Below are positions 1-17,800 of a stretch of DNA of 64,000 bases, piece by piece. The DNA lies in contig FN648396.1 of the NCBI GenBank assembly GCA_000310025.1, positions 91,120 to 155,119 on the forward strand, read 5' to 3'. The position numbers were made by a program, and so were the translations under genes. Numbering within the stretch: position 1 is the first letter of the stretch; each line of letters opens with the position of its first letter. A model generated the notes under the pieces. The model worked only from the letters and a program-made list of their open reading frames with translations, was not told where the DNA came from and searched no databases. This stretch comes from Ectocarpus siliculosus (taxonomy: Eukaryota; Sar; Phaeophyceae; Ectocarpales; Ectocarpaceae).

Positions 1-1558
1 TTTCCCCCCCCCCCCATGGTAATTTCCCCCCCCCCCCCGGTGTTTGCCATCGGGGTTGGGTTTTCGTCGCTTGGCAACGACGTTGTAAAACAAGCCGCCC
101 CCCCCGGTGTTTGCCATCGGGGTTTGGGTTTTCGTCGCTTGGCAACGACGTTGTAAAACAAGCCCCCCACCACTCGGTGTTTGCCATCGGGATTGGGTTT
201 TCGTCGGCAACGACGTTGTAATACAAGCCAATTCACTTCGTGAACTCGGCACCCAGGTTGTTACCGGTTTTTTTTTCACCTCGTTTTTTTTTTTGGAGGT
301 AACCATAATGAATGGTGGTCGAGTAGATCATGTTGTGCGGGGTCGAGAAACCTCACTCCGCACGACGAACGGGGGATGATCGCACCACGTTGTGTTAAAA
401 TGGTCAAGCTTCCTCGAGGCAGTTACACAGTGCTTATAACTGTCTCTGGAAGTGAAAGCACCAGAAAATAAATTAAGTCATACGTAGCTGTCATCCGTAC
501 GCAAGGAAGTAAGCACAAGATGCCGAACACCCTTAGCAGGATGCAGCTCACCCTTCATGCGACTCGCCAAATACCTCACGGCGCTTCGCGCTTGGTGATG
601 TGAGAGCCTGGTCCGGTGAGAACCCGGCGTGCTCCGTCCCGGCTTTGTAGGGATGCGAGGTCAATGGTCAAACGACTACGGCATGCACGACTATGAGTAC
701 ACCCCCCCCCCATGGTCAATTTCCTTTTTTTTTGCGCATACATGTATGTATGTGTATGTATATGGGGGTGTTTGATTTAATTAATTGTTTTTGGGTTCGG
801 GGAGTACATATGCATATACTGTGTCATATTATTAAGAAAATAATAAAAAAGTAGGTACAATTGCACTGCTGAAGCTTGTTGCAATCGCTGGCTTGAAGCA
901 CAGTGCGTAGAAACTCCGGAGAAAAGGAACGTACCTGCCCTCCCGCTGCAGAGAATATCACCGCGGGCACATGTATGTGTACGACTGCGTTTTTGAACAG
1001 AACCCACTACCCGCCAGGCGTTGCCCGTACTGCTGTGGGATTCGCCGCCGACAACGCCGGGTAGAAAGTTAGAGAGAATCCCGACACACATCGGTACACC
1101 AGCATGTGAGGATCAAGGCCTTCGAGTCCGTCTACGGAGAAGTAAGACGTCCGTTCCTGAACGTGCGAGCCAGGGCCGCCGTAGCGTCGTCCCTGATGAT
1201 CGGAGCCATCCTCTTGATGATCGGAGCCATGCTCTTGTTACATGCGTGTCAAGGCACGAAAGCGGCTCTCAGCCTTCTGGTTTGAGAGGTCGGCACCCTT
1301 GCAATTTTGCAATACTCCAAGGTAGTGTTGTTGATCCAGATTGCAGCAGCCCTCGAAGATACAACGCGATATCACCCAAAACCCTAACCAAACCCTAGTC
1401 AGCAAGTCCGGGTAGCATCATAAGACGCCGAACTCAATCACAAGATTGTGTATGGCAAAACTCGACGACGAGTATCGTCGCGTTGCGTGTCTGAAGCTTT
1501 CGATTTTTCCAGCGGGTAACAATCAAGGTAGACACCAAGAAGACGCCCGATGAGCACA
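1..1558. other. Left flank, no supported gene
   Basis: Apart from the tandem repeat near the left edge and several homopolymer C/T runs, I see no convincing gene, RNA gene or conserved protein here. Short open frames exist on both strands but lack recognisable domains. The retrotransposon inserted at its right edge. Confidence 0.6.
39..229. repeat. Tandem repeat, ~67-bp unit, three copies
   Basis: Three head-to-tail copies share the core GTTTGCCATCGGG followed by GGTTTTCGTCG and AACGACGTTGTAA. The third copy is slightly shortened and diverged. The copies are separated by C-runs. No coding function is evident. Confidence 0.85.
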
Positions 1559-1826
1559 TGTAGTGGTATGCACGCGTGATGAAGTCTGGTTGACCCGTGT
1601 TGAAGAACTCACTTGTTGTTACTCTTGCAGAACAGCAGCAGCAGTAGCTGTTGCCTTGGGTATCGGTAGGAATGACACCAAGGGGCACAGGATCCTCTGC
1701 ACAAGCAGGGGCTACTAGATCCTGTCCCCTGCTTTTTATCCTTCCGCGGAGAGTTACATCTCTCCGCGCCTTCTAGAAGGAACCAAGCTCTTCTATGTTC
1801 CGTCTACACATCTGAATCCTATAACA
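1559..1826 (-). repeat. Left LTR (3' LTR in the gag-RT orientation), 268 bp
   Basis: It is a direct copy of 14615-14884 and differs mainly by lacking one GA dinucleotide near 1753. It begins TGTAGTGG and ends ATAACA on the plus strand. It contains two small perfect hairpins: AGCAGGGG paired with CCCCTGCT (about 1704-1734), and CGCGGAGAG paired with CTCTCCGCG (about 1745-1768). On the minus strand GGATAAAAAGC (1731-1741) is a TATA-like sequence. Confidence 0.93.
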
Positions 1827-2447
1827 CTAGCTCACCCTGGAGGTTCTCATACGCAGATACAGTAAACCTCGAGGCTTGGCAAGAAATTGTCGAGTCCTTA
1901 AATGAACGTATCGAGGATGTGGAGCTCCAAAACAGCACAATTCACCCTCCCACACCTCTCACTCGATGAGTCGCAAGACCATCGTTTGACTTCTAAAACG
2001 ACAAAAAGACACAGGAAGGAACTGACGGGGCTAAGAAAAGCCTACGACAACCGGAAGAAGGTCGGAACCAAAGAAAGGAACACACAAAGAAAGGAAGAAA
2101 AACAGAAAGGAAAAACAAAGGTCGTCAAAACGACAAAAAGAAAGGATCACTGTAGGAACCACAACAAGACCGGTATCGAAAGAAAACGATAAGATACGCC
2201 ATTCACGCAGTCGCCACGGCAGTGTAGAAGGGGCAACAATGGGCGCGAAACACCTACAGGTCGCGACCAAACGCTAAAGGCACAAAATAAGGCGAGGAGA
2301 AAGCGAAAACCAACCAAGGCTAAAAAGCAACCCAAGCAAAGTCGAAAGCAACTTAAACAACGCTGAAAATAATCCAGCCATTGCTAAAACGAAGCCCAAC
2401 AATGCGAAGAGCAACAGAAGGCACAAACAACCAAGAATGTCGTCTTA
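1827..2447. other. Internal non-coding segment between left LTR and integrase ORF
   Basis: This part is A/purine-rich on the plus strand. It has several ACGACAAAAAG-like motifs (about 1999-2010 and 2130-2140) and AAAGGAAGAAAAACAG-like runs. No domain-bearing ORF is visible. It would be the 5' leader of the plus-strand integrase gene, or the 3' untranslated region of the minus-strand genome. I see no convincing polypurine tract next to the LTR. Confidence 0.5.
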
Positions 2448-4919
2448 ATGGGGGCGCGCAACGTCATCAGGCAACGAGTCAGTGCCAACGTCGCCACGGG
2501 ACATGTCGATGTTGCGAAGGATGCCCTTGAAAAGGGCACTGCCGCTGTGAACTTGCCTTCGTCTTCGGTTTCCGCTGCTACTCTGCCTTCGGGTGGATTG
2601 CAGCCGGAGCCTCAGGAATCGGCTCCCTCTTCTATCGAGGCGGCTTTACATTCCTCGGCAGATTTAGCCTTCCGGGCGTCTGTCGAACGTTTCTCGTATG
2701 CTGATTGGGCTCGCGAGCAACGTAACGAACCTGTTTGTGATGCAGCTATTCGTTTCATCCTTCTGGGTCGGCCTTCGGCTCTCCCTTCGGATTTCTTGGA
2801 TCATCTTCTGTCCGCTCGTCGACCTCCTCTGTCGGAGATTCGTGACCTGTCCAACAAAGGCCGGTTACAGGTTGACGATGATGGTTTGGTCTTGCTTGTT
2901 CGCAAGCAAACAGCGCCCCCGTCGTCTACGACCACACGTCCTGGCGGGCGTGCTGCTCGCCTTCTCAACGACGAACCCATTCGGATTTATGTTCCCATGC
3001 TCATGCGTCCGTGGATCATGCAAGCCTGTCACGCTGATGCATCCTGCCACCTCGGTGCCGCTCGCACGCTCAGCATGCTGGAACGTTTTTATTGGTGGGT
3101 TGGCATGAGTGTTTGCACGAAGTGGTGGGTAAGGCATTGTTTGCGATGCCAAGCTCGCAAGTCATCTCGTCAAACGCCTAGATGGCCTACTTTGTGCCTT
3201 CCGCTGCCTTCGGGCCCTGGTGTGTCGGTGAGCGTCGATTATTTCGGTCCCCTCCCGTTGACACCGCGCGGAAACACATATATTCTGCTTTTCACTGATC
3301 GTTTCAGCCGCCGTGCTGACATGTACGCGGTTACGGCTGCAGAATTCACCGCCGAAGGCACCGCTGACGTACTTGTCAATCGGTATATCCCTTTATGGGG
3401 TTGCCCTTTGAGTCTCTTGTCTGATAATGGCTCTCAGTTTTGTTCTAAACTGTCGCAGGCTGTATACGCCCGTCTGGCTATCCGCAAAGTGGCTACCAGC
3501 TCTTACCATCCCAACGGCAATGGGGGTGTGGAGCGCGTGAATCACACTATGGCTCAGATGTTGGCTATGGTCGTCAATGAGAGGCAAGATGATTGGGACA
3601 TTCATCTGCCGCACGTTGAGTTTGCCTACAAAAATTCGGTTAGTGCCGCTACTGGTTTGGCACCCAACGAGGTGCATATGAATCGACTGCCACGCATGCC
3701 GATGACGGTTTTTGAGCATCCATATGCTCGAGGCCACCAAAGCTTGCATCGCGATCAACTTGAGTATTGCGATCTTGCTGCTGATCGCCAACGTCGTTCT
3801 TACGATTTAGTTCGCGAACAGCACAACCTGTCCGTTTCGAGGATTGAGCGGCGTAACTCCGCTCTATCGGATGCTTTGCGCAAGGTCCCCTCATACACCG
3901 TCGGTGGATGGGTTTGGGTTGTTGTTGTTGTTGTTGTCTTCACATTAAAAACCGTTCCGATCTCTCTCTACCCAGTACCTTCGTATGTCCGTCCTGATCC
4001 AACACTCGACGCAGTCGATTCCCGTGGTCACAGGTTAACTTACCCTAAAAAGGTACACTCAAATAAACTGGCCCCGAGGATTTGGGTGTACAACACCGAA
4101 TCTACCATTCGCCAAGGTGTTCGTTCAGGCACGGATGACAAGGTTCTCAAGGCTAAGTTGTCTTTCCTCTGGACTGGTCCGTTCAAGATTTTGGCCGTGG
4201 GTCCGTGTCCTGACGCTCCCGATGGTTGTCCTCTGGCTTCCAAGTTACTCTATTTGGTTCTTCCATCGGATATGCCGGGTCCAGACTCGAAAAATCGTGT
4301 GTCGGTTGCGCGTTGCAAGCCTTGCGCTAATCCGCATGACACCGAAGATTTGCCTCGGTTCCTGCCTGCCGGTCTTATACCGTATGTGCTGAACTCCTAT
4401 GCGAATAAATCTCCTCCCTACCATGTTACGGAAGACGACGTGTCGACTCCGGTCGAACGTCTCGAGATTGACCGCATTAGTGGCCATCAGTCTGTTCGTG
4501 GTCGTGGTGGCACCATCGCGGTTTTATACCAAACTCATTGGAAAGGTCTTCTTCGTCCTTCTTGGGAACGTGAGATGGACCTCCAGCATTCCAAGCCCCA
4601 CATTCTCAGGTACTGGACAGGCTCGCCTGATCAACACCGCCAAACGAATCGCCGCTATCGGGCAATGCGTATTGGTGCGGCCAACCGCGAGGTGGCACGC
4701 GCTGTGAGCGCGCCTTGCCCTCGGGCTATTCGCTCGTCTCTCGTTCTTCATGGGACCGTCGCTTGGCCAATACTCCGCTACCTGCAGGCGCCTTCTTCTG
4801 GTACAAGCGCGCGATGGATTCTGGTGGTTGGGCAAGATTACTGGACCGCCCCTACCGTCCGATTTCTACGTCGTCCGCTTCTTAGACGATCCTGGACCTG
4901 TCAAGCTCGCCCTTCCTGA
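2448..4919 (+). CDS. Retrotransposon integrase with chromodomain (separate plus-strand ORF, 823 aa)
   Basis: This enzyme would insert retrotransposon cDNA into chromosomes. It starts with an ATG at 2448 and has no RT upstream on this strand. The N-terminal ~190 residues resemble the linker normally found between RNase H and integrase. A zinc-binding HHCC module follows (about residues 195-235, with HADASCH and CLRC). The catalytic core has D264 (SVDYFGPLP), D326 (SDNGSQF) and E362 (GGVERVNH), with D-61-D-35-E spacing typical of the family. A chromodomain-like segment lies at about 667-725 (YQTHWKG, then PSWERE). A (GTT)n run gives seven valines near residue 490. The last ~70 codons read out of frame: a Tudor-like segment (GFWWLGKITG, then FYVVRFLDDPGPV) continues in another plus frame at about 4800-4945, so at least one frameshift has occurred. 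Confidence 0.93.
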   Translation: MGARNVIRQRVSANVATGHVDVAKDALEKGTAAVNLPSSSVSAATLPSGGLQPEPQESAPSSIEAALHSSADLAFRASVERFSYADWAREQRNEPVCDAAIRFILLGRPSALPSDFLDHLLSARRPPLSEIRDLSNKGRLQVDDDGLVLLVRKQTAPPSSTTTRPGGRAARLLNDEPIRIYVPMLMRPWIMQACHADASCHLGAARTLSMLERFYWWVGMSVCTKWWVRHCLRCQARKSSRQTPRWPTLCLPLPSGPGVSVSVDYFGPLPLTPRGNTYILLFTDRFSRRADMYAVTAAEFTAEGTADVLVNRYIPLWGCPLSLLSDNGSQFCSKLSQAVYARLAIRKVATSSYHPNGNGGVERVNHTMAQMLAMVVNERQDDWDIHLPHVEFAYKNSVSAATGLAPNEVHMNRLPRMPMTVFEHPYARGHQSLHRDQLEYCDLAADRQRRSYDLVREQHNLSVSRIERRNSALSDALRKVPSYTVGGWVWVVVVVVVFTLKTVPISLYPVPSYVRPDPTLDAVDSRGHRLTYPKKVHSNKLAPRIWVYNTESTIRQGVRSGTDDKVLKAKLSFLWTGPFKILAVGPCPDAPDGCPLASKLLYLVLPSDMPGPDSKNRVSVARCKPCANPHDTEDLPRFLPAGLIPYVLNSYANKSPPYHVTEDDVSTPVERLEIDRISGHQSVRGRGGTIAVLYQTHWKGLLRPSWEREMDLQHSKPHILRYWTGSPDQHRQTNRRYRAMRIGAANREVARAVSAPCPRAIRSSLVLHGTVAWPILRYLQAPSSGTSARWILVVGQDYWTAPTVRFLRRPLLRRSWTCQARPS

Positions 4920-4960
4920 TGTTCGCTACTCCACCGTCGAAACCGCCGTCTCCGGATCCT
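4797..4960 (+). pseudogene. Frameshifted Tudor-like C-terminal tail of the integrase
   Basis: In a plus frame different from the integrase ORF the sequence reads GFWWLGKITG followed by SDFYVVRFLDDPGPVKLAL. This is an aromatic-rich beta-barrel pattern resembling Tudor/Agenet-like modules found after chromodomains in some Ty3/gypsy integrases. The segment directly upstream (ANTPLPAGAFFWYKRA) is in the third frame. The tail therefore seems broken by two small indels near 4700-4745 and 4815. Confidence 0.6.
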
Positions 4961-5490
4961 GGCCGAGTGGTCGAAACCGAACGCGTCGAAGATTCCGAAG
5001 AATCGGGGGCAGCAGAAGACTGCTGGGCAGGAGCAACCGAAGTTGCAGGATGCGTCGAAGACGCAAGATCCCTTCCACGAGCCAGAGGCGTATGAAGGTC
5101 TGGGATCGAAGCGTCAGCACCAGGAGTCGAAACCAACCTGGTCAAAACGGGAGGCGTAGTCGATGCGGAAGACGCGGGCGAAGAACGTCGAAACGATCGG
5201 GGCGAAGCGGAGATCCGAGTGGGAGCAGGTGGGTCCTCAGAAAAGCCATAATCCACGGGCGGGAGGGGCTTGCCTGCCACAACCGCCGTGCGACGGCGAG
5301 TTCGCGTGGAAATCAGTTGAGTAGGGTCGAGAGTCCGTCGTGATGCGGCAGTCGGCGAGACGGCCGGCGAAGACTCGGGCTCGAGAGCCAAAATGTCCTC
5401 CACCGAAGAATGTAAGGAGCCAGACCAATCGAGGGTCCTGCCACACAGGCGTCGTAGCGAAGGAGACAACCCGCGGGGGTTGTTGGACGG
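4882..5490 (-). pseudogene. Ser/Pro/Thr-rich segment downstream of RNase H (minus frame)
   Basis: After the TGA/TAA-broken RT-RNase H frame, the same minus-strand frame stays open for about 200 codons. It encodes a low-complexity Ser/Pro/Ala/Arg-rich stretch (for example LEPESSPAVSPTAASRR) that ends at 4882. It overlaps the Tudor-like tail on the opposite strand, so the two strands share about 80 bp of potentially coding DNA. It may be the tail of the polyprotein or simply the convergence zone. I recognise no domain. Confidence 0.4.
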
Positions 5491-7257
5491 TCAGGGTGCG
5501 ATGTTCCAGATGACAGGCGGAGACGAAAGGCCTGACGGCGAGAGACGTGGACCATGCCGACGGAAGTCGACGAAATCATCTGCAGAGGGGGCCAGCCCAC
5601 CCAAGACCGAAGTCGGGGAAGTGGGGACGAGCCCACCCAAGCCAACACCCACGGCGCGATGGCCAGAAGGCGTAAGGCCACACGAACGGATGAAGAACAC
5701 GCCCTCCTGATCGTCGTTCGGTGTCAAGCGGATGCGACCAGACCGGTCACATTCCGCCGCATCGATCGGAAGGCGAGAGAGGAAATCAGCGTTGCCATTT
5801 GCGGAACCCTTGCGGTACTCTAGAGTGTAATTGTAGGCGGTGAGAATTTCGAGTCAACGCTGAACACGGGCATTGTTCTCCCCCACCTTGGCAAAATGCT
5901 CAAGAGATTTGTGGTCGGTAAAACTGCGAAATTTCGTACCCCACAAATAACCGCGAAGTCGTTTGATACACCACACGATGCTACCCGCCTCAAGGTCGAG
6001 AGGGGTCCAATGACGTTCGGAGTCCAAAGTAGCTCGGCTGATGAAAACGATGGGTCGGATGGAGCCATCCGGCTGTTCCTGTTCGAGAGTCCCGCCAAAT
6101 CCATCGCGACTAGCATCACAGTAGAGGCGAAAAGGCCGCGAGCCGTCCGAAACGGCATCCCAATCCGGATAAACCAAGATAGGAGGGTTGGCCAACTCCG
6201 ACAGTAGGACTCGAACAGCTTGCTCCATGGCAGGGGTGAAGACGAACGTCGCCTGCTTCTTGAGAAGAGTGGTCAGAGGTCGAATTCGCGTAGCCATGTT
6301 GGGAAGGAACTTGCGGTAGTAGCTGAGGCCGCCAAGAAGAGAGCGAAGTTGTTTAACATCCTTGGGCATGGGCATTTTGGTGACGGCTGCAACCCTGGCC
6401 CCGTTAGGCCGAACACCGTCGGAAGAGATGGTGTGACCTAGGAAGTCCGCTTCGGTAGCGCCAATGGTGGCCTTCGGTGGGGTGAGTTTCAAGTTGTGTG
6501 TACGCAAACGTTCAAACAGAGCGCGCATGGTATCAATATGAGAAGCAGGGTTGTCGTCGAAAACGATCAAATCATCCAAGTACGATGCAACACCGTGGAG
6601 ATTTTTTATGACTTCGTTGACCACCTTGCAAAACCACCCAGGGGCAGCAGAACTGCCTTGAGGCATCTTCAACCACTCAAAAATCCCGGTTGACGTCACG
6701 AATGCCGTCAAAGGGATTGTATCACGGTGAACCGTGATTTGGTGGAACGAAGACTTCATGTCGAAAAGGGAATAGATTCGCCCTTTCAACAGCTTGTCCA
6801 AAGTATCATCAACTCGAGGAATCGGAAGCTGGCTCAAAGCACAAAGCTTGTTGAGCTTGCGATAATTGACAGTGATGCGAACACCACCAGATTTCTTCGG
6901 TATGACTACCAAAGGACTCGAGTAGGGCGAGGTCGAATGTTGGATCAGACCAGCCGCAAGATATTGATCAAGGATCGCGTCAACTTGTTTCGCCACCGGG
7001 GGGTTTACGCGGTATGGACGAGATGTGACGGGTGCACTGCCCGGAGGAACTATAAGCTTGAAAGGAAAAAGCGAACAAGATCCAAAGTCGGTGGGGGAAC
7101 TCGAGAAGACATCATGATAGTCGCACAAGACGTTACCAAGCTGAGTGATGACATCCGGAGTCCAACCCGGACCATGGAGATCAAAAGAAATCTCACGGAG
7201 ATGGCAGGGGAGCTTATCCCACACGCGGGAAAAACTCTTACGTTGTTCAGACGTCAC
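5491..7257 (-). pseudogene. Reverse transcriptase-RNase H of the retrotransposon (one in-frame stop)
   Basis: It encodes the polymerase that copies the element RNA into DNA and the RNase H that removes the template. From 7257 to 5857 the frame is open. It has typical Ty3/gypsy RT blocks: SSPLVVIPKKSGGVRITVNY, YSLFDMKSSFHQ, and the active site YLDDLIVF (YLDD at 6582-6571, about residue 226). RNase H follows, with YCDASRDGFGG, DLEAGSIVW and FTDHKSLEHF. A TGA at 5856-5854 interrupts the highly conserved ARVQRWLE stretch; it reads as tryptophan TGG turned to TGA. After it the frame continues through YTLEYRKGSANGNADFLSRL to a stop at 5491. The protease lies upstream in another frame, overlapping by about 4 bp, so RT would need a frameshift, or an indel separates them. 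Confidence 0.93.
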
Positions 7258-8430
7258 CGCTCGAGAAGAGCAGGCGGAGGCGACGAAAGAGAAGCACTGG
7301 CAGAACCAGGGTCCTCTTTGCCGCGCGGCGACGGTGTGGGTCGCTCATGCAAATTATACACGAAGGGGTCATCAATGCGACGTTCGGCAGACGAATCAAT
7401 GCCACCTGTCGAAACAGGACCCGGAACCCAGTTGCCCGAAGCAATGGTGGGATCTTTGGCCGCAGATTGAAGACCATCACTCAACGTGTGGCGAGACACA
7501 GCACTGAGAGGCACGCGAAGAAGGGGAGCCGAAGCTGTACCCAGAATGTCGCCTGGTTCGAGTGAAGAGATACCCGCGAGCGGGAGTCTTTGGCAGCCAT
7601 TTTGCACAAAATGTTCCTCGGAAGAAAACATAGCACATTGTGGAAGCATATCCACGAGATAGTTACCCACGAGGGCTGGAGAGCCATCGCTACGCACCAA
7701 ATTAACCGGAACAAGGCTATGTTCGGGGTGAAGTTGGACGGAGTGTTTCCCAGCGTAGCGAAGTTGGTAGTTACCATCCGTGGAAGACAAATCGTGAGCA
7801 AATGCAGTGGCACCGAAACTGCCATGCTGAGCCAGAGTAAGCTCACCAAAAACACGGTCACCAGGGCGTTTCGCACGCAAAGTGCGGTAAGAGCGGTCGC
7901 TAAACCGCATCCAACTGTCTCTCCCGAGGAGTACGTCATAATGCATAACACCATCAGGAACAACGTATGCCCAAACAGCGAGAGAGGAAGTAGGAAGGCG
8001 CTTGCGAAGAAACTGCACGCTCAAACGGACAATAGTCGAAGTTTGAAGCGGAGCAGATTTGCCGAAACCTCCCCAACAGCGAGGTTGGGTTTGTTTCTCA
8101 GACTACGACGAAGCGGCCGAAGCGGCTTTCATGGATTCCCACGCAGATGCACTAATAAAAGACTGCGGGGAACCCGTGTCCAAAAGCGCAACACATCCAA
8201 ACTGAACAGAAGCCGAACCACTGTGAGTGAGGATTTGGGTGGTGAAAGAGTCATCATCGATGGTAACAACACCATCAACCAAATCCGGGCCTTGCTCGGG
8301 AAGCAAAGAAGAGGAAGAGGATGGCTGAGGGCACCCGGAAGACACGGCCCAAACAGCGGTGTCATGATCCGATGGAACATTCGCAGCGTAAATTGTGAAA
8401 ACGACGCGAATCGTTTAGTCGACGGAGGGC
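7254..8430 (-). pseudogene. Retropepsin-like aspartic protease region
   Basis: This region would cleave the Gag-Pol polyprotein. The catalytic loop reads ALLDTGSPQSFIS (DTG at 8180-8172). About 80 codons later comes the conserved hydrophobic-hydrophobic-GRD segment YDVLLGRDSW (about 7934-7911). Between them a TAG at 8105-8103 interrupts the frame, and another stop lies near 8416-8414 just upstream. The C-terminal ~200 codons up to the TGA at 7256-7254 are a Ser/Pro-rich spacer. The frame then changes into RT. The position directly before RT is the usual one for Ty3/gypsy protease. Confidence 0.85.
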
Positions 8431-8483: not shown

Positions 8484-10256
8484 TTATGTTGAGACGACGT
8501 CGAAACGCGGTCGTTGGGGGGCAGCAAACAAGAGTTGCGCTCGGGTGGCGGGGCGTTGCATCGCAAAAGACTGCGTACTCGTTGAAGGGCGTTGCCCAAC
8601 AAATTGAGACCACGCTCGAGAGGTGTATTGAGCGTCAGGATCATCGGCTTGAAGGCCAATACCCCAAATACGGTCGTAGGGGCTGGCTTCGGCAAGGATT
8701 TTGTCGCCAGATCCGAGAAGGTGATCGCGCAACTCGGAGTTTTGACTAAATTTTGCGTAAGAGCCAGTGAGCACGATATTTTCGCGCTCGCGTTCCCAAA
8801 GAAGTGGGTCGAAACCACGGACACCGCGGCCAAACTTCTTGTGCAAGGCAGGATCGGACACGCGCATGATGTGCTGTAAAGCGCTATGGTCGTCGAAAAG
8901 ACGAGCTTTTTCCGCAGCGAAAAACTGCTCAGCACACGAGTATACCACTCCATCGACCACAAAAGTCGACGGTGTCCACTGGGAAAAGGGAGAGGGAGGC
9001 TGCCAAAAGAAGACCATGTCAGGAGTACAATACTCGTTAGACGGGTCGAAGACAGCGGGAACTGCAGGAGTCGAAACACCTGGAGTGCGGTCAGCCGAAG
9101 CTGAGGTTGCAGCCGAAGCTGATGTAGCCGAAGCGGAGGCAGCCGAAACGCCCGCATCGTAATTGACGGCATGGACGTCCATGGGGACAGTCTCGGGTAT
9201 GTCAGAGACCGGCGAAGAATCGACGGGAGCCGAATTGTTCGCAATAATTGGGCCAGCGACATCACGCTGGGTGCGCCCCAATCCTAAACCTGGAGAAACG
9301 CCTCGTAAGGTGTCATTGAACAGGCCGCTTTCGCTAGGAACGGCCGCCAAGGCCGGGTCAGTTAAAGAACCAAAACGGGCGTGGTGCTCCTGGCCATTCC
9401 TCCATGACAAGGTACGCGAGACCGCCGGCTGTTCGGAGGTCACTCCGGGAGGGTCCTCCCGAAGCGGTGGTGTCAACACTGTCGACGTCGGTCGCGGCGG
9501 CCTGGGGTGGGGCGCCGTGGGGCGAGCGTGCGTCGGAAGGGATGGAGCGTCCGAAGACGATCCATGGTCGAAATATCTCGTGGCGGAATCTGATGGTGTT
9601 CGGCGGTCAGAACCAAGAGAACAATGTGATTCGAAGCCAGGCGAATTTGACCCTGCAACTTGCCGGTTGGAACCAGTTAAGTTAGCTACTGGTACAACAA
9701 TCGAGGGCGAACCCTCAACGGAAGCGAGCACAGACGAGTTGAGCGTATCCGAAGATTCACCCGAGGTAACCAATTCAGGCGATTCCTCTTCAATCGTCCA
9801 AAGCGCATGGCTACGGCCGGTCTGATCTGCAGACGACGGGGGGAGCGAACGAGCAGTGCCCGACAAACGAGCGGTACTCGATGGCCCCGAAGGTCCTACG
9901 GTTCTGTTCCCGCACCTCAAGACAGTACTCGCGCCAGACTGGTTAGTTTCCGACGGAGCGCCAGCCCGAAGAGGTAGAGACGCAGAGGTGGCAGACGATG
10001 AGTGCGATGAAGAAGGTGGGACGAGAGCATATGTCTGGATACCGACCTGATCGACACTGGGGGAAACAACGGGTACCGAAGTATGGTTGTTATTGTGCGG
10101 CACCGAAGTACCAGAAGGGATAACATTCACCGAAGTGTGGTTATCGTTGCGTAGGACCGAAGTGCTAGAGGCAACAGTGTGAGACATAGCGACAGATACC
10201 GAAGTATTGTCGTTGTTGCATAAAACCGAAGTATTAGGGGCAACAGAGCGTGACAC
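8484..10256 (-). pseudogene. Gag-Pol segment with NADAR (YbiA/DUF1768-like) domain
   Basis: The 590-codon frame begins with ~400 Ser/Thr/Pro/Val-rich residues that include degenerate TSVP(H/R)NNNHTSV repeats. A NADAR domain follows at about 9034-8600. Its signature blocks are FFWQPPSPFSQWTPSTF, VVYSCAEQFFAAEKARLF, KKFGRGVRGFDPLLWERERE, YAKFSQN and LAEASPYDRIWGIG. The canonical end of the domain, NTPLERGLNLLGNALQRVR, is present but in another minus frame (about 8640-8560), so a frameshift lies near 8640. A shift back is needed by about 8415 to reach the protease. NADAR family members (YbiA, bacterial DarT-linked NADAR) are N-glycosidases acting on ADP-ribose or riboflavin-pathway conjugates. 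A role in a retroelement is not established. The frame is continuous with Gag upstream apart from a TGA at 10343-10341. Confidence 0.88.
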
Positions 10257-10340: not shown

Positions 10341-12521
10341 TCATCCGCTGCGAGAACGGCCACCATTTTGGAAGTTGCCAGGTTGACGGGCATTGTTATT
10401 GGTCGAAACCATGATGCCAGACGAAGGACCGGTGTGTGCATGTGTTTGTGGTTGATAGACGGACAGAGCACCAGTGTGGTTGGCGTTGATCGAAGGGTGT
10501 TGCTGAGGGTGAGAGTTACCTGCAGAATTCCCTGGGGCATACCCACTGTTGTGCGATTGTGTCTGATGAGTGTGAAGGGAACTACCACAGTCGGAACGGC
10601 GATTCCCAGCGTGGTTTCGACGCTGAGAGGACGAAGAGGAATAGCGCTGGTGGCGTCTACCCTGATTGTTTTGGCGGTTGTCCGCACTTTTTCGTCGAAA
10701 AGACCGCATACGGCCTTGCCAACGTCTAAAAGCAGCAGAATCGTCATTGAGGAGACCCAGCTCGGGGTTCAACAACCCACTAGAATTCGTGAACGGTGCA
10801 ACGCATTGCTTCATGGAATGGTCTTCACCCGAGCAGTTCAGACAGCGATTCCTGTTTTCGCGGAAGGCTTGCGAGCGAGCCTCTTGTGTCAACAAAGGCG
10901 TCCACAAAAAAGGATCATCCGTGTTACGAAAACTAGAAGTGAGAGCGTATACATCAGACCAATCGGCTTGCGAGGCAGACCAAGAATTATAGTTGCGTGT
11001 GAAAGGGTCGGCATCGTGCGATTGTACCGGCAAAACTACAGGGTGCTGAGCAGAACCTGGTGCCCACTGGCCCGAAGGCGCGGGGACGCGGTGTTGGGAC
11101 CGCAGAGGCTGCGAGGAGCCACGCGTCGAAGACAACGAAAAATAAGATGAGCCGCCGATAGCCGGGGTTTTATTTGTCGCTAGAGGCGCGAACGCCTCCC
11201 ACATATCCGCAATCGACACAAAGGGAGTGACGGCCGTGGCCAGATCACCCGGGTACAAAATCGGAGACAAACTCGGAAACTGCTTGCAGACCGAATGCCG
11301 CACTATTTCTAGAACCATGGATACGCTAGGGGCCAAAGTACGCTCAGAGCCAGTTACAGACGAAACCAACAAACGAAAAGCACGAAGGTAATCCACGAAA
11401 GAAGTACCATCTGCTACTCCAAATTGTTGTAGCCTCAAAAACGACTCTTGACGGTTGCCGACATCAAATTGCTCCGCAAGATGACGCAACAGCAACTGAA
11501 AAGCTTCTGGTCCGGTGGCGCCACCGTCCAAGCTTCTCTTCACCTGCTGAAAGTAATCAGCGATGGAAAGGACAAGATCGGCAGTAGAGGGCTTGTCAGG
11601 GGTGATCGCACCCGAAACTTTCTTTTCGAGAGGCCGTTCCCATCCAGGCACGTAATCAGTACTGTCCAACCCTTCGCTTTGGTCATCACACAGCAACTAT
11701 ATGTCGGACAAGGCCGTTCGTGTTGTGCGGATGAGCTGTTGGTAGCCGTCCCCAGGCAACAAAGTTAAAGGGAAGGGCATGGTAGCGACATTTCTAACTT
11801 TTTTCAAGTTCAGAGTGACGTACCCCCGTTGGACAGTAATTACGTGAGCCTTGCGAACTGCCGAAGCAGCCGCATCTACTGTGGCTTGACGAGCATGTGC
11901 AATGTTGGAAGAAAGTGGCAAGACACTATCATCCGAAACGACAGGGGGTACAGCAGCTGCAACCGAAGGAGCAGCACGCGGAACACGATCCCAAGACGGT
12001 ACAACATGGTGAACATCTTGTACGGGCACAAAAGTCGAAGGGGGGGTGGGGTTTGAGAACCCGGGGTTGTGTGCGATTCCTGAGCCTACAGCATAATCAG
12101 CGGTAGAAAAAACAGGAGGTGCAACAGTTTCCGAAGAAACGGGGGGGGGCGAAGCCTGTGGCATGTTCGAAAACGCAACACGAGTTTCCGAAGAAACGGG
12201 GGGGGGCGAAGCCGGAAGGTTCGAAAACGCAACACGGGTTTCCGAAGAAACGGGGGGGGCCGAAGCCGGAAGGTTCGAAAACGCAACACGAGTTTCCGAA
12301 GAAACGGGGGGGGCCGAAGCCGGAAGGTTCGAAAACGCAACACGGGTTTCCGAAGAAACGGGGGGGGGCGAAGCCTGTGGGCATGTTCGAAAACGCAACA
12401 CGAGTTTCCGAAAAAACGGGGGGGGGCGAAGCCGGAAGGGTCGAAAACGCCACACGGGTTTTCCCAAAAAACGGGGGGGGCCCAAACCGGAAGGTTCGAA
12501 AACGCCACACGAGTTTCCCAA
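10341..12521 (-). pseudogene. Gag with CCHC zinc knuckle (one in-frame TAG)
   Basis: This segment supplies the structural protein that would package element RNA. The minus frame is open from 12521 to 11700, hits TAG at 11699-11697, and stays open to TGA at 10343-10341. The N-terminal part is the translation of the 54-bp tandem repeats (FSNLPASAPPVSSETRVA units). It leads into a helical, Gag-like region (for example DGTSFVDYLRAFRLLVSSV). The zinc knuckle reads CLNCSGEDHSMKQC (CX2CX4HX4C, 10844-10803) and is followed by an Arg/Ser/Gln-rich basic tail. Both terminating codons are followed by more matching frame, and TGA at 10343 could derive from CGA. They may be decay, readthrough sites or sequence errors. 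Confidence 0.88.
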
Positions 12522-14668
12522 AAAACGGGGGGGGCCGAAGCCGGAGGAACAAAATCATCCCGCAAAAAGAAACGAGCACCCCAAGTCGCGTCCATAAGAG
12601 ACGGAACTACTTGCCTTTGGCGGCCCGGCTTGCGGGACAAGCTGGTGTCCGAGCCCGACCCGGTCCCGCTCTTGTTCTTGGAGCCACGAGCGCCATCCCC
12701 GCCACGCTTGGCCACCTTTCTCTCCCGGCTACCACCCACCGAAGAGGACGAAGGCGCCGGGGGTCGACGCGATGCTCCGGCCGAGCTCCAGCCAGACTCC
12801 TCTCCCGAGCTACCAGGACCACTCTCCCGACTCGGTTGCGCCTGCTTGACACGACTCGGCGCCGGCTGCTGGAACCCATAGGAAGCCTCTGAAGGCGGAC
12901 CGCTGCAGCCAGGGTACACCACGGGAGCAGTGGCACGGGCGTTGGCCGTCCGCATCCCAGCGAGGAAACGGCCGGCCAGATCCCGAAGATTCGGACGGGA
13001 GGCGTTAGCCACATCCACCGCCTCCTGTATGGTGGCGGCCGCCGGCAACGCGATGGACACTTCCGTGGCCAAGTCCCTGACCGATTGGCTATCCCCAGGA
13101 AGGAAGTTGAACTGCTGATACTGTGCTACATCTGCTAGCTTAGCCGGGGTGAACCTGAAATCACCAGACTCGAACGTGATAGGGCCACGTCGCGACGACG
13201 AGGAGCGGGTGACCGGGCTTGTCGAAGCTGCCGCCGCATACGTTCGAGACGAAGCGGCAGAGGTGGTCGGTGCAGAAGCAGCTCGCCCGCCGGCTCCCGA
13301 GACGCGGGACGACCGCTCCTCACGTTCGCGGAGGTCCTGCTCACGTCGTTTTCCGGCCTTGCGGCCCGCTTCGACAAGCGCGTCCTCCTGGCGCCGGTCT
13401 GCAGTCAGGGTGGCGGCCAGTTGACTCCGCTGATGTTCGCATTTCTTTTGAAGCGCTTCGAGATCGATGATTTGCTTCGCGTTAGAAGCGCGCGTCGCTC
13501 GCAGGAGCCTGAGCTCCTCCTCTCGGACGGAAACTTCCTGGTGGAACTCCTCGTCGGCTAGGTCGTCCTGTGCTTGTCTAGCGGCCGCTCGGTCGGCATC
13601 GACGGCGGCGCCGCTCGCCATGCGAACGGCGTCCGTCCATGCGGTCGAGCGCGCATCCGCGGACATGACGTCCCACAGGGCTGCGGGGACCCACCGCGGG
13701 CAGGAGAGAGGTGCAGCCGTGGCCGGAGCCGTGGCAGAAGCCGTGGCCGAAGCCGTGGCCGAAGCCGTGGCCGAAGCCGGGGGTACTGCCAAAGCAGGGG
13801 TGGCGGCCGAAGCCGAGGGCGCCGCCGAAGCAGCGGTGGTGGCCGAAGCCGAGGGTGCCGCCGAAGCAGCGATGGTGGCCGAAGCCGAGGGTGCCGCCGA
13901 AGCAGCGGTGGTGGCCGAAGTCGCCGACGCCGCGGGGGGTAGAACCATCTGGACAGGCTCGGCCGGCCGGCCGGTGACTGCAGACCTTGTTCCGCCACCG
14001 GTGGTGGAATCCCGAAGCTCTGGAGTCGATATCCCAGCAGAAGACGCCGCCTCGGGCTTGACGGTAGGGGAGATGGCCACCATTGTAGTACGGCGTAGGA
14101 TGTCGTAGAGTTGGCTGTTACGACGCTCTGCGATTTCAAGACGAAACAAGGCATCAGCCGTAGCAGCACGTTCATGCGATGAGGAAAGCATGGGGAGGGG
14201 CGGGGGCACCATGTTAGAAAAAATAAAAGGTGCAGCGGCAGAGGGCACTGCGGAAACAACTGAGGTCGCAGCTAGGGGCGCCGAAGCAGAAGCTAGCATG
14301 GCAGAGTCGGTCGAAACGGTAGGATCGAAACCCGCCGTGTGAACACGTGAATCTGTGGAAAATGCGGGCAGAGGCGTATCTACTGGCATAGAAACAGCGG
14401 TGTTTACAGCAGCCGAAGCCGCTGACACAGAGTTCTGTGTGGAAGTAGTGTGGGCGGGGAAAGGGGCAGACGACACTGTACGCAGGGTCGAAACGGTACG
14501 AAGAGGCGGAGCTGCAGGAATAATAGCATCGCCAGCAGTCGAAACTGTGGGCAGGGGCGGGGCTAATGGAATGGGCAAAAGTACAAGTGCAGCAGTCCTG
14601 CAGACGACGCCAAGTGTAGTGGTATGCACGCGTGATGAAGTCTGGTTGACCCGTGTTGAAGAACTCAC
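12086..14668 (-). CDS. N-terminal retrotransposon ORF, Ala/Ser-rich with coiled coil (860 aa)
   Basis: The ORF starts inside the right LTR (MSSSTRVNQ at 14668) and may begin further in. It contains repeats rich in ASATTAASAAPS and ATASATASA units. A highly charged segment of about 100 residues (HQEVSVREEELRLLRATRA, then KKCEHQRSQLAATLTADRRQ) is predicted by eye to form a coiled coil. A basic Ser-rich region (SRERKVAKRGGDGARG) and then the start of the 54-bp repeats follow. Within those repeats this frame degenerates into PPRFFGNSCCVFE-type translation, while the Gag frame carries the sensible SSETRVAFSNLPAS repeat. A frameshift in the repeats (around 12380-12480) therefore probably joins this ORF to Gag. 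No enzymatic domain is seen. It is most likely the N-terminal part of an oversized Gag. Confidence 0.65.
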   Translation of the reverse strand: MSSSTRVNQTSSRVHTTTLGVVCRTAALVLLPIPLAPPLPTVSTAGDAIIPAAPPLRTVSTLRTVSSAPFPAHTTSTQNSVSAASAAVNTAVSMPVDTPLPAFSTDSRVHTAGFDPTVSTDSAMLASASAPLAATSVVSAVPSAAAPFIFSNMVPPPLPMLSSSHERAATADALFRLEIAERRNSQLYDILRRTTMVAISPTVKPEAASSAGISTPELRDSTTGGGTRSAVTGRPAEPVQMVLPPAASATSATTAASAAPSASATIAASAAPSASATTAASAAPSASAATPALAVPPASATASATASATASATAPATAAPLSCPRWVPAALWDVMSADARSTAWTDAVRMASGAAVDADRAAARQAQDDLADEEFHQEVSVREEELRLLRATRASNAKQIIDLEALQKKCEHQRSQLAATLTADRRQEDALVEAGRKAGKRREQDLREREERSSRVSGAGGRAASAPTTSAASSRTYAAAASTSPVTRSSSSRRGPITFESGDFRFTPAKLADVAQYQQFNFLPGDSQSVRDLATEVSIALPAAATIQEAVDVANASRPNLRDLAGRFLAGMRTANARATAPVVYPGCSGPPSEASYGFQQPAPSRVKQAQPSRESGPGSSGEESGWSSAGASRRPPAPSSSSVGGSRERKVAKRGGDGARGSKNKSGTGSGSDTSLSRKPGRQRQVVPSLMDATWGARFFLRDDFVPPASAPPVFWETRVAFSNLPVWAPPVFWENPCGVFDPSGFAPPRFFGNSCCVFEHAHRLRPPPFLRKPVLRFRTFRLRPPPFLRKLVLRFRTFRLRPPPFLRKPVLRFRTFRLRPPPFLRKLVLRFRTCHRLRPPPFLRKLLHLLFFLPLIML
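12129..12545. repeat. Tandem repeat, ~54-bp unit, about 7.5 copies, inside gag
   Basis: Units read TTTCCGAAGAAACGGGGGGG, then CGAAGCCGGAAGGTTCGAAA and ACGCAACACG. On the minus strand they encode an 18-residue repeat containing PPVSSETRVAFSNLPAS. Units differ by single bases in the G-run and in a TGTGG(G)CATG variant, which moves the reading frame. Units towards the right edge (12420-12540) are more diverged, with CCCAAAAAA in place of CCGAAGAAA. Confidence 0.92.
13709..13940. repeat. GCCGAAGC-rich minisatellite in the N-terminal ORF
   Basis: Short units of CCGTGGCCGAAG, then ~36-bp units of CCGAAGCAGCGGTGGTGGCC type, alternate for about 230 bp. On the minus strand they encode Ala/Ser/Thr-rich ATASATASA and SAAPSASATTAA repeats. 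All six frames stay open through it, which creates many spurious ORFs. Confidence 0.85.
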
Positions 14669-14884
14669 TTGTTGTTACTCTTGCAGAACAGCAGCAGCAG
14701 TAGCTGTTGCCTTGGGTATCGGTAGGAATGACACCAAGGGGCACAGGATCCTCTGCACAAGCAGGGGCTACTAGATCCTGTCCCCTGCTTTTTATCCTTC
14801 CGCGGAGAGAGTTACATCTCTCCGCGCCTTCTAGAAGGAACCAAGCTCTTCTATGTTCCGTCTACACATCTGAATCCTATAACA
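14615..14884 (-). repeat. Right LTR (5' LTR in the gag-RT orientation), 270 bp
   Basis: This copy is nearly identical to 1559-1826, with one extra GA in the GAGAGA run. Its minus strand would be the promoter for the Gag/RT transcript, with a TATA-like GGATAAAAAGC in the middle and the same two hairpins downstream of it. Minus-strand reading frames run out of the LTR into the internal region, so translation could begin inside the LTR. Confidence 0.93.
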
Positions 14885-17800
14885 CACACAGGGAACCGGG
14901 GGACCCCAAAAAACAAAGCATGAAAAATTAAGGAATAATAAAAACACAAAAATATTAGAAACAAAGAAGCGAGAACAAAAGAGCCAGGCGCGACCGTAGG
15001 CTGCAGGGAGGAGGCAAAAGAGAGCATAGAAAAACCACGGTCGTCGCTCGCTCTGGACCGCTGGAAACTCTCATAGCACTCACTGCATATATGCAGCAAA
15101 CGTTAGGTAGGGCCCAAGTCCATTGCTTGGCATAACGCCCATCGCTTCTCATGCAGCAGCAGCCGAATGCACGGGTAGCCTCTTACGCAGCAAGAAGCAT
15201 TGGTTGACGTTCGATGTTGTTGGGACCCCACCGGCGAAAGGAGAGAGAGAGAGAGAGAGGAAGACTAGACAAAGAGAGCGGAGAGAAGGCAAGGCATTAA
15301 CTCTCGAGAAGACACTCCCTCTCAACCCTCTGGCTCACCGCAAGCTGTCAGACATGATGTCACATTGTGTATCGACCGGTGATATCCGATGTCGGCTCAG
15401 CAACAACAAACAAACACAACAAACAAATATAGTCTAGTCGTTGTAGGAAGTGAGATAAAGAGAACATGACTACATAGCACCACGGACGAACTATTATCTC
15501 AATACGCTTGCCGTCCGCGATAGATGCGCACCGCTGCACGAACGAGCAGGACTGCTGGTTATGAGCCGAACTCAATCACAAGATAACCGCCGAGCCAGAA
15601 ATGGCGGTTTTGGTTCTCTTCGGTATGTGTGTTCATAGGGTCGTTCGCCCAGCCTTTGGTGCTTAGATATATCCTCCGTAGAGCCGTGCGCCCAGCCAAG
15701 GCACACGGAAGAATTCCACAGGTAGGTTCGGCTGCTGAATGCGGGAACCTTGGAAAACTTTCACAATGAATTGAATGCTGTACTACGGGTGCATGGCGTG
15801 GGTTCCGTGCAACGATAAATAGTCACTTCCGCCACCATCATCTCCGGTTGGCACACCACACGCTCGTCCTGAGTCAATCGGTGTAAGGGTCCGCCGCATG
15901 CATGGGGTCTTTCGCCACAGACGGGCCATTCGCTTCAAGAAAGCCCTCGAGAAAATCTTGAGCCGCAGCACGGAAGCAGCGCCTACTCGCAAGCGTCGGT
16001 TTTCTTCACTAGGCCCGTGGCCACCGAAGCAATACCTCTTGTCTCGTGCCAGAGAGGCCCGGAACGGAAGAATCGTTAGGATACGGGCATGCTCAAGACG
16101 TCGAGAACCGCACCGCCCAGAGCTACAACCACAGCTGGTTTTTCGCTCAAGATGCAGTATGTACGCGAAAGGATCTGTATTCGGACTGAATTGATAATCG
16201 TACCGCAACGTAACAGTAGTATTGTATTGGTCCGTCACACTTCGTAACCATGGCGCAGTGCTTCACTGGGCCGCAATAGTACTCAAAACAAGCGCTAGGT
16301 AAAAGAGAACGGTTGTATTTTCGTGTTTTCTGCGTGCAACTCACGTGCCGCAAGAAAGTAGCAGCGTGGTGGCAGCACCTACTCGTATTGGCTTCTACGC
16401 GTTGACCCCGCCGAGGTCAGAAAAAAAAAAAACACTCTTTGGGTGTAAAATGGCTGAAGCAAATCCAAACGACACAACCGACTTGCACCTCAGCCCTTAC
16501 AATTTTGTGGTGCATTACCAAAGTCATGGAAGCAAAACACTACACGACAAAGACGGCCACACAGAGCTCAATCGAGATGCCTCCGTACCGTTCCCCTCCC
16601 GCTCATACCACCCCCTCCGCCCCCGTTAATGCCACTCCCCCTCGCTCAGAGAAGGAAACTTGAACAAACATCAAACATCGAGCCAGCCACTCCAAAGATG
16701 CGCCTCCTCTCCGACGTGATACTGAATATTAGTAGTGACTTTCTCCCCTTTGGTCGCCATTCTTCACGCAGGAACATACCTCCACGGAAGCACGAGCGCG
16801 TGAATCTGTGTTGTTGGGAAATTACATGAAAATAATATCGTACATTATAGGGCAAGAATATAAGAATAGCGTATCTTCTACGAAGGGGAAAATCTACGAC
16901 CACCTTGGATGGTGTGAGAGCTGTCCCCATGGACGTCGGCACAATCGTGAGACGCGGCCAATAAATATAGAAGGTTATCGTGCGCGTTGTTTCGACAACG
17001 ACAGGCCTGTGCGCAGGATCACACACGAGAAATTGCAAGGAGGTCATCCGACACCTGAAACGGCACCCAAGGCCAAGGCCTCTTCCGCCCCAGGGGGGTC
17101 CATAACCAGATCTATCCATCCGTAGTATGTGTCACAATTTCCATCGCTGCCCCCCCCCCCCTCCCCCACTCCGCATATGCGTACCACCAATCCGACTCTC
17201 ACTCTCACTCTCTCAATGTCGGCAGACTCACCTAACTCGCGCACTTGTGGACTTGCTGGGAAAGAGACCAAAAGGGACCGTCGTTCGTACCGTATGAATA
17301 GTCGTTGGGCGACATGTATGTGTCATCGCTCACGTCCCATTCGGAAGCGCCGTGCCTGCGTTATCCGATTCCTTCCGTGTGGTAATTCCGGGAAGCGAAC
17401 CGTACTACCGTGCTGCAAACACCTGGCGGTAATCCAGCGTCGGCAACTACTGAGGATGGTTGAGCTGTACTGGCCGAGGGTCCAGGTGCAGACGTCAGGC
17501 CTACCGTGGGTGGCACCTAAGCCCCGCCTGTCCTCCCCCGCCGCTTCCGCCACGTCTCATGTTGCAACAAGTCGATGATTGCCGGACGTTTGGGTGTCAT
17601 TGGCGTCCTGATACACGTTTCATGTAAACAACAGAGCGAAGCACAACCGAACACCATCGTCAAACAGGGGGGGCAGAACTTGTTCAGCAGTTGGATTCCC
17701 CAGGACCTTCGACTCATGTACAGTACTCGGCCGGTTGAAATGTTTTGTGCAGCCCAGTCTGTCGAAGTAAGGAGATTATGGAGGGTGAATGTTCGAACTA

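Follow-up and report, generated by a model that had tools for sequence, protein, structure and literature searches.

A Ty3/gypsy-type LTR retrotransposon with many copies in the genome includes one defective copy in which a block of about 2.4 kb, carrying the integrase, has been flipped in place; we assign this reading a probability of about 0.9. The copy lies in the window, the whole stretch of 64,000 nucleotides of Ectocarpus siliculosus DNA analysed here (C56:91120-155119), and was compared with the rest of a genome assembly of 189 Mb in 492 contigs. Pfam domains and comparison of the LTRs bear out the observation of the earlier, sequence-only reading that the integrase stands opposite to the reverse transcriptase (RT) within a single LTR pair: between two near-identical LTRs, the integrase is encoded on the plus strand, and the minus strand encodes Gag, NADAR, protease and RT. 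The layout nevertheless has an ordinary cause, a rearrangement, and does not define a novel type of element. The claim of a new class of ambisense retrotransposon is thereby removed, the arrangement being confined to one copy among those scored.

Structure of the element

Besides a NADAR domain, this defective copy has the full Ty3/gypsy domain set (RVT_1, RNase H, H2C2 and rve) in Pfam searches (Table 1). The sole difference between its LTRs is a 2-bp indel, with no substitution, and the CACA on the outer side of each forms a 4-bp target-site duplication that encloses the whole element. Among the three other copies for which both LTR flanks were compared, such duplications are seen in C21 (GGGG) and C85 (GTAT), and the flanks of the C457 LTR pair show no matching repeat; the comparison covered one LTR side of C26, C39 and C41, and the 5′ LTR of C33 was not found in L057.

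Table 1. Features of the inverted element and its surroundings (window coordinates).
Feature	Position	Strand	Evidence or remark
Target-site duplication CACA, 3′ end of element	1555..1558	.	LTR-flank comparison; 4-bp repeats also in 2 of 3 other LTR pairs
3′ LTR, 268 bp	1559..1826	-	LTR pair comparison
Tail (between integrase and 3′ LTR), uninverted	1827..2555	-	of 7 loci compared, C33 is nearest
Chance plus-strand start of the 823-codon ORF (36 codons including the ATG), antisense to tail	2448..2555	+	
Inversion junction 1, one shared base	2555..2556	.	base-level comparison
Inverted block with integrase: H2C2 (ORF residues 182-240), rve (257-355), weak chromodomain	2556..4962	+	
Dispersed repeat end with (GTT)n/(AAC)n tract, ~7-bp flanking repeat	3918..4079	- (inferred)	
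Inversion junction 2, one added base	4963..4963	.	base-level comparison
RT-RNase H and following spacer, uninverted; in-frame stop within RNase H at ~5854	4964..7257	-	
Protease region, two separate ORFs (7254-8024 and 8103-8345)	7254..8345	-	DTGS motif in 8103-8345
NADAR-domain ORF	8484..10256	-	PF08719, E 9.8e-37
Pair of Gag-like ORFs (CCHC-type motif in 10341-11696; tandem repeats in 11697-12521)	10341..12521	-	
5′ LTR, 270 bp	14615..14884	-	LTR pair comparison
Target-site duplication CACA, 5′ end of element	14885..14888	.	LTR-flank comparison

The sequence-only reading placed RT-RNase H at 7257-5491 on the minus strand. The strand is upheld by Pfam (RVT_1, E 1.2e-26; RT_RNaseH, E 3.1e-26); the RT ORF extends from 7257 to 5854, where the in-frame stop within RNase H closes it. 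We take the DTGS motif as the mark of the protease; the ORF at 7257-8024 has no Pfam match, and the Asp_protease_2 match in the C33 copy is weak (E 0.26). The two upstream ORFs, both of which lack a Pfam match, are presumably Gag, judging by their position and the CCHC-type motif. A tandem repeat with a period of ~54 bp occupies eight register positions at 12083-12599, mostly within a Gag-like ORF, and a 68-bp unit, C-rich at its start, stands in three tandem copies at 27-231, ~1.3 kb outside the element.

Gene order in other copies

Integrase region, RT region and left part of the window served as queries in genome searches, 40 candidates being scored of 2179, 242 and 2800, respectively; the integrase query yielded 39 other integrase copies. 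RT and integrase are co-directional in all 33 copies that have a listed RT match within 50 bp, and the tail and integrase follow each other in the usual same-strand order in all 38 that have a listed tail match within 1600 bp. The six remaining copies have no listed RT match, and one of these, on C10, has no listed tail either. The tally took 39 integrase rows (first-part matches, window excluded), 38 tail rows and 39 RT rows; of the 43 RT rows listed, the window's own and secondary pieces on C92, C134 and C14 were left out. The usual order is also seen in the L051 copy, in which a single minus-strand ORF of 2552 amino acids (191-7849) spans the match positions of NADAR, RT and integrase. RT-RNase H upstream of integrase on one strand is therefore the arrangement of the family wherever it could be tested (33/33) and is not that of the window copy, whose opposite-strand layout recurs in none of the 39 other scored copies. 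The sequence-only reading had weighed an ambisense element with convergent genes, an inversion in this copy and an error of assembly, and had proposed the strand layout of other copies as a check. Since RT and integrase are co-directional elsewhere, this comparison rejects the first option and supports a local inversion in the present copy only, canonical order being found in other copies on the RT side and on the tail side alike.

Breakpoints of the inversion

Aligned base by base with C33 and nine to ten other loci, the inverted segment runs from 2555/2556 to 4962, the edges of the block lying at 2555 and 4962/4964. The breakpoints are nearly devoid of homology: the losses come to 3-4 bp at the RT/integrase boundary and 6-7 bp where the integrase block ends, ~10 bp together, with one base added at junction 2 and one shared at junction 1. 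A 32-base probe spanning each junction, with up to three mismatches allowed, has the window as its sole match in the 189-Mb assembly, and the reversed control of the probes has no match there. Small losses together with an added base at junctions nearly free of homology are the typical footprint of end joining. The inversion probably involved two breaks, one at the RT/integrase boundary and one near the end of the integrase, after which end joining would have restored the ends with the middle segment reversed; the flip may have occurred before insertion, at the cDNA stage, or afterwards, in the integrated DNA.

The same footprint makes it improbable that the contig was mis-joined inside a repeated element, an error to which the multicopy nature of the element would lend itself. 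Mis-joins at repeats in assemblies normally fall within shared sequence, whereas both junctions here lie in non-homologous sequence and bear small losses and an added base; moreover, part of the block and its flanks have the same nearest copy, as described below.

Origin of the inverted block

The inverted part at 4078-4960 differs from C33 by 14 mismatches, against 45-52 in 13 other rows (11 copies). On the uninverted side, the tail shows 17 mismatches to C33 and 33-46, with more gaps, to six others, and the RT side shows 59 to C33 and 68-99 to six others. An inversion in place is favoured by C33 being the nearest copy both to the tail and to 4078-4960. The remainder of the block behaves differently: over 2556-3919 there are 29 mismatches to C33, more than to 10 of the 12 further full-length rows, the best being L002 with 18. 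The argument from a common nearest copy thus rests on 4078-4960 and the flanks, and the mismatch pattern of 2556-3919, which could reflect exchange between copies, weakens the case for an inversion in place without overturning it. This pattern is also what would speak for an integrase fragment of another copy having been joined in reverse and having replaced the original, which we consider very unlikely, since the block sits exactly where the native integrase would be, and its other part goes with the flanks in being of the C33-like subtype.

The plus-strand integrase ORF

The 823-codon ORF contains an integrase zinc-binding domain (E 4.9e-13) and an rve core (E 1.2e-9), both on the plus strand, and the catalytic residues D264, D326 and E362 as well as the H2C2 residues are found at the positions given by the sequence-only reading. 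The same reading held that the integrase starts from its own ATG, and took the long and intact ORF as an argument against simple decay; this description is misleading, and the argument from an intact ORF does not hold. Similarity to the sister integrase of C33 begins at codon 37, the first 36 codons being antisense of the tail, so that the inverted block does not include the ATG at 2448. An insertion of ~56 codons, derived from a repeat (~3918-4079), separates the integrase core from what we take to be the ‘GPF' motif, and from codon 753 onward (~71 codons) the reading frame departs from that of C33. The antisense start, the repeat insertion and the frameshift, together with the in-frame stop of RT, indicate that the copy has several separate defects. 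The plus-strand ORF is best viewed as a by-product of the flip, and a working ambisense gene would not be expected. An element whose normal layout is ambisense, with a convergent integrase gene, would correspond to a long plus-strand ORF with integrase motifs; it is ruled out for practical purposes by the comparison with the 39 other scored copies and by junction probes that find each junction only once in the assembly, as well as by an ORF of antisense start with an insertion and a frameshift.

The inserted stretch at 3918-4079 is covered by none of the 39 other integrase matches scored. As a ~160-bp repeat end, it recurs in at least 40 other places of the genome with 97-99% identity, in addition to one partial match at 94%; it opens with the (GTT)n tract and extends over at least ~1.6 kb in other loci. 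It probably represents a sequence resembling the 3′ end of a 5′-truncated LINE.

For the chromodomain attributed to the ORF, the matches stay below the cut-off. A 101-residue piece searched on its own matches PF00385 (E 0.0026), with a score of 18.1 bits that lies below the cut-off of 25.1, and the whole 823-codon ORF gives no chromodomain match at E 0.01. The corresponding region of C33 is likewise below the cut-off (PF00385, E 0.061), the best hit of a PDB sequence search with the chromodomain region is not significant (MPP8, E 0.48), and the stretch that follows this region in C33 (L018 1231-1608), considered as a second chromatin-reader domain, has no Pfam match up to E 5. The element probably carries a chromodomain.

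Timing of the damage

Positions private to the window copy amount to 22 of 2334, 8 of 1364 and 9 of 883 in three parts of the element compared with 7, 12 and 11 other rows, respectively, small comparison sets in which the alignments held 8, 13 and 12 sequences and the last 11 other rows represent nine copies. The tail, for which two of the seven other loci were kept, was left out of this comparison. The LTRs are free of substitutions, although the body carries private changes together with a stop, a frameshift and a nested insertion; this would be compatible with mobilisation of a defective lineage in trans. Part of the damage may be older than the last insertion; the inversion itself is left undated by these substitutions. 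A tentative suggestion, which we hold to be possible but doubtful, is that template switching or the joining of cDNA ends produced the inversion while reverse transcription was under way, and that the copy integrated already inverted. In that case it would illustrate cleanly how an LTR element can integrate with an internal inversion and be moved in trans.

Relatives and analogous rearrangements

The combination of NADAR and Gypsy is already reported for Ectocarpus. According to a 2025 description, a NADAR/chromodomain Gypsy lineage exists in this alga (for example, Gypsy-12_Ec32), NADAR occurs in Pol in one of its four Gypsy lineages, and putative C-terminal chromodomains occur in three of the four (PMC12477816). 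The window copy resembles the NADAR lineage in its PF08719 domain, as does the L051 copy in the NADAR match of its RT and integrase ORF; it differs from the Gypsy-12_Ec32 lineage in the inversion of its integrase block, the likeness being one of description and not of sequence comparison.

Inverted proviruses of HIV-1 offer a parallel: internal inversions form a class of defective provirus (6/575; PMC11219899) and a named category (PMC11014653). Both cases present an LTR-bounded insert with an inverted internal segment (PMC11014653, PMC11219899). HIV-1 is, in contrast, a retrovirus in human cells, and the likeness is an analogy only. Judged by titles and the openings of abstracts, none of the papers listed in searches on internal inversion in LTR retrotransposons deals with such elements.

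Two further domain families were counted in the genome. EsV-1-7 domains, described as having proliferated in brown algae (PMC12477816), give at least 150 matches to their cysteine motif (880 candidates) and are found in 0 of 14 control genomes; their abundance points to a probable brown-algal host. NADAR (YbiA-family) domains also give at least 150 matches (230 candidates), some of them in other copies of the element family, and have matches in 3 of the 14 control genomes.
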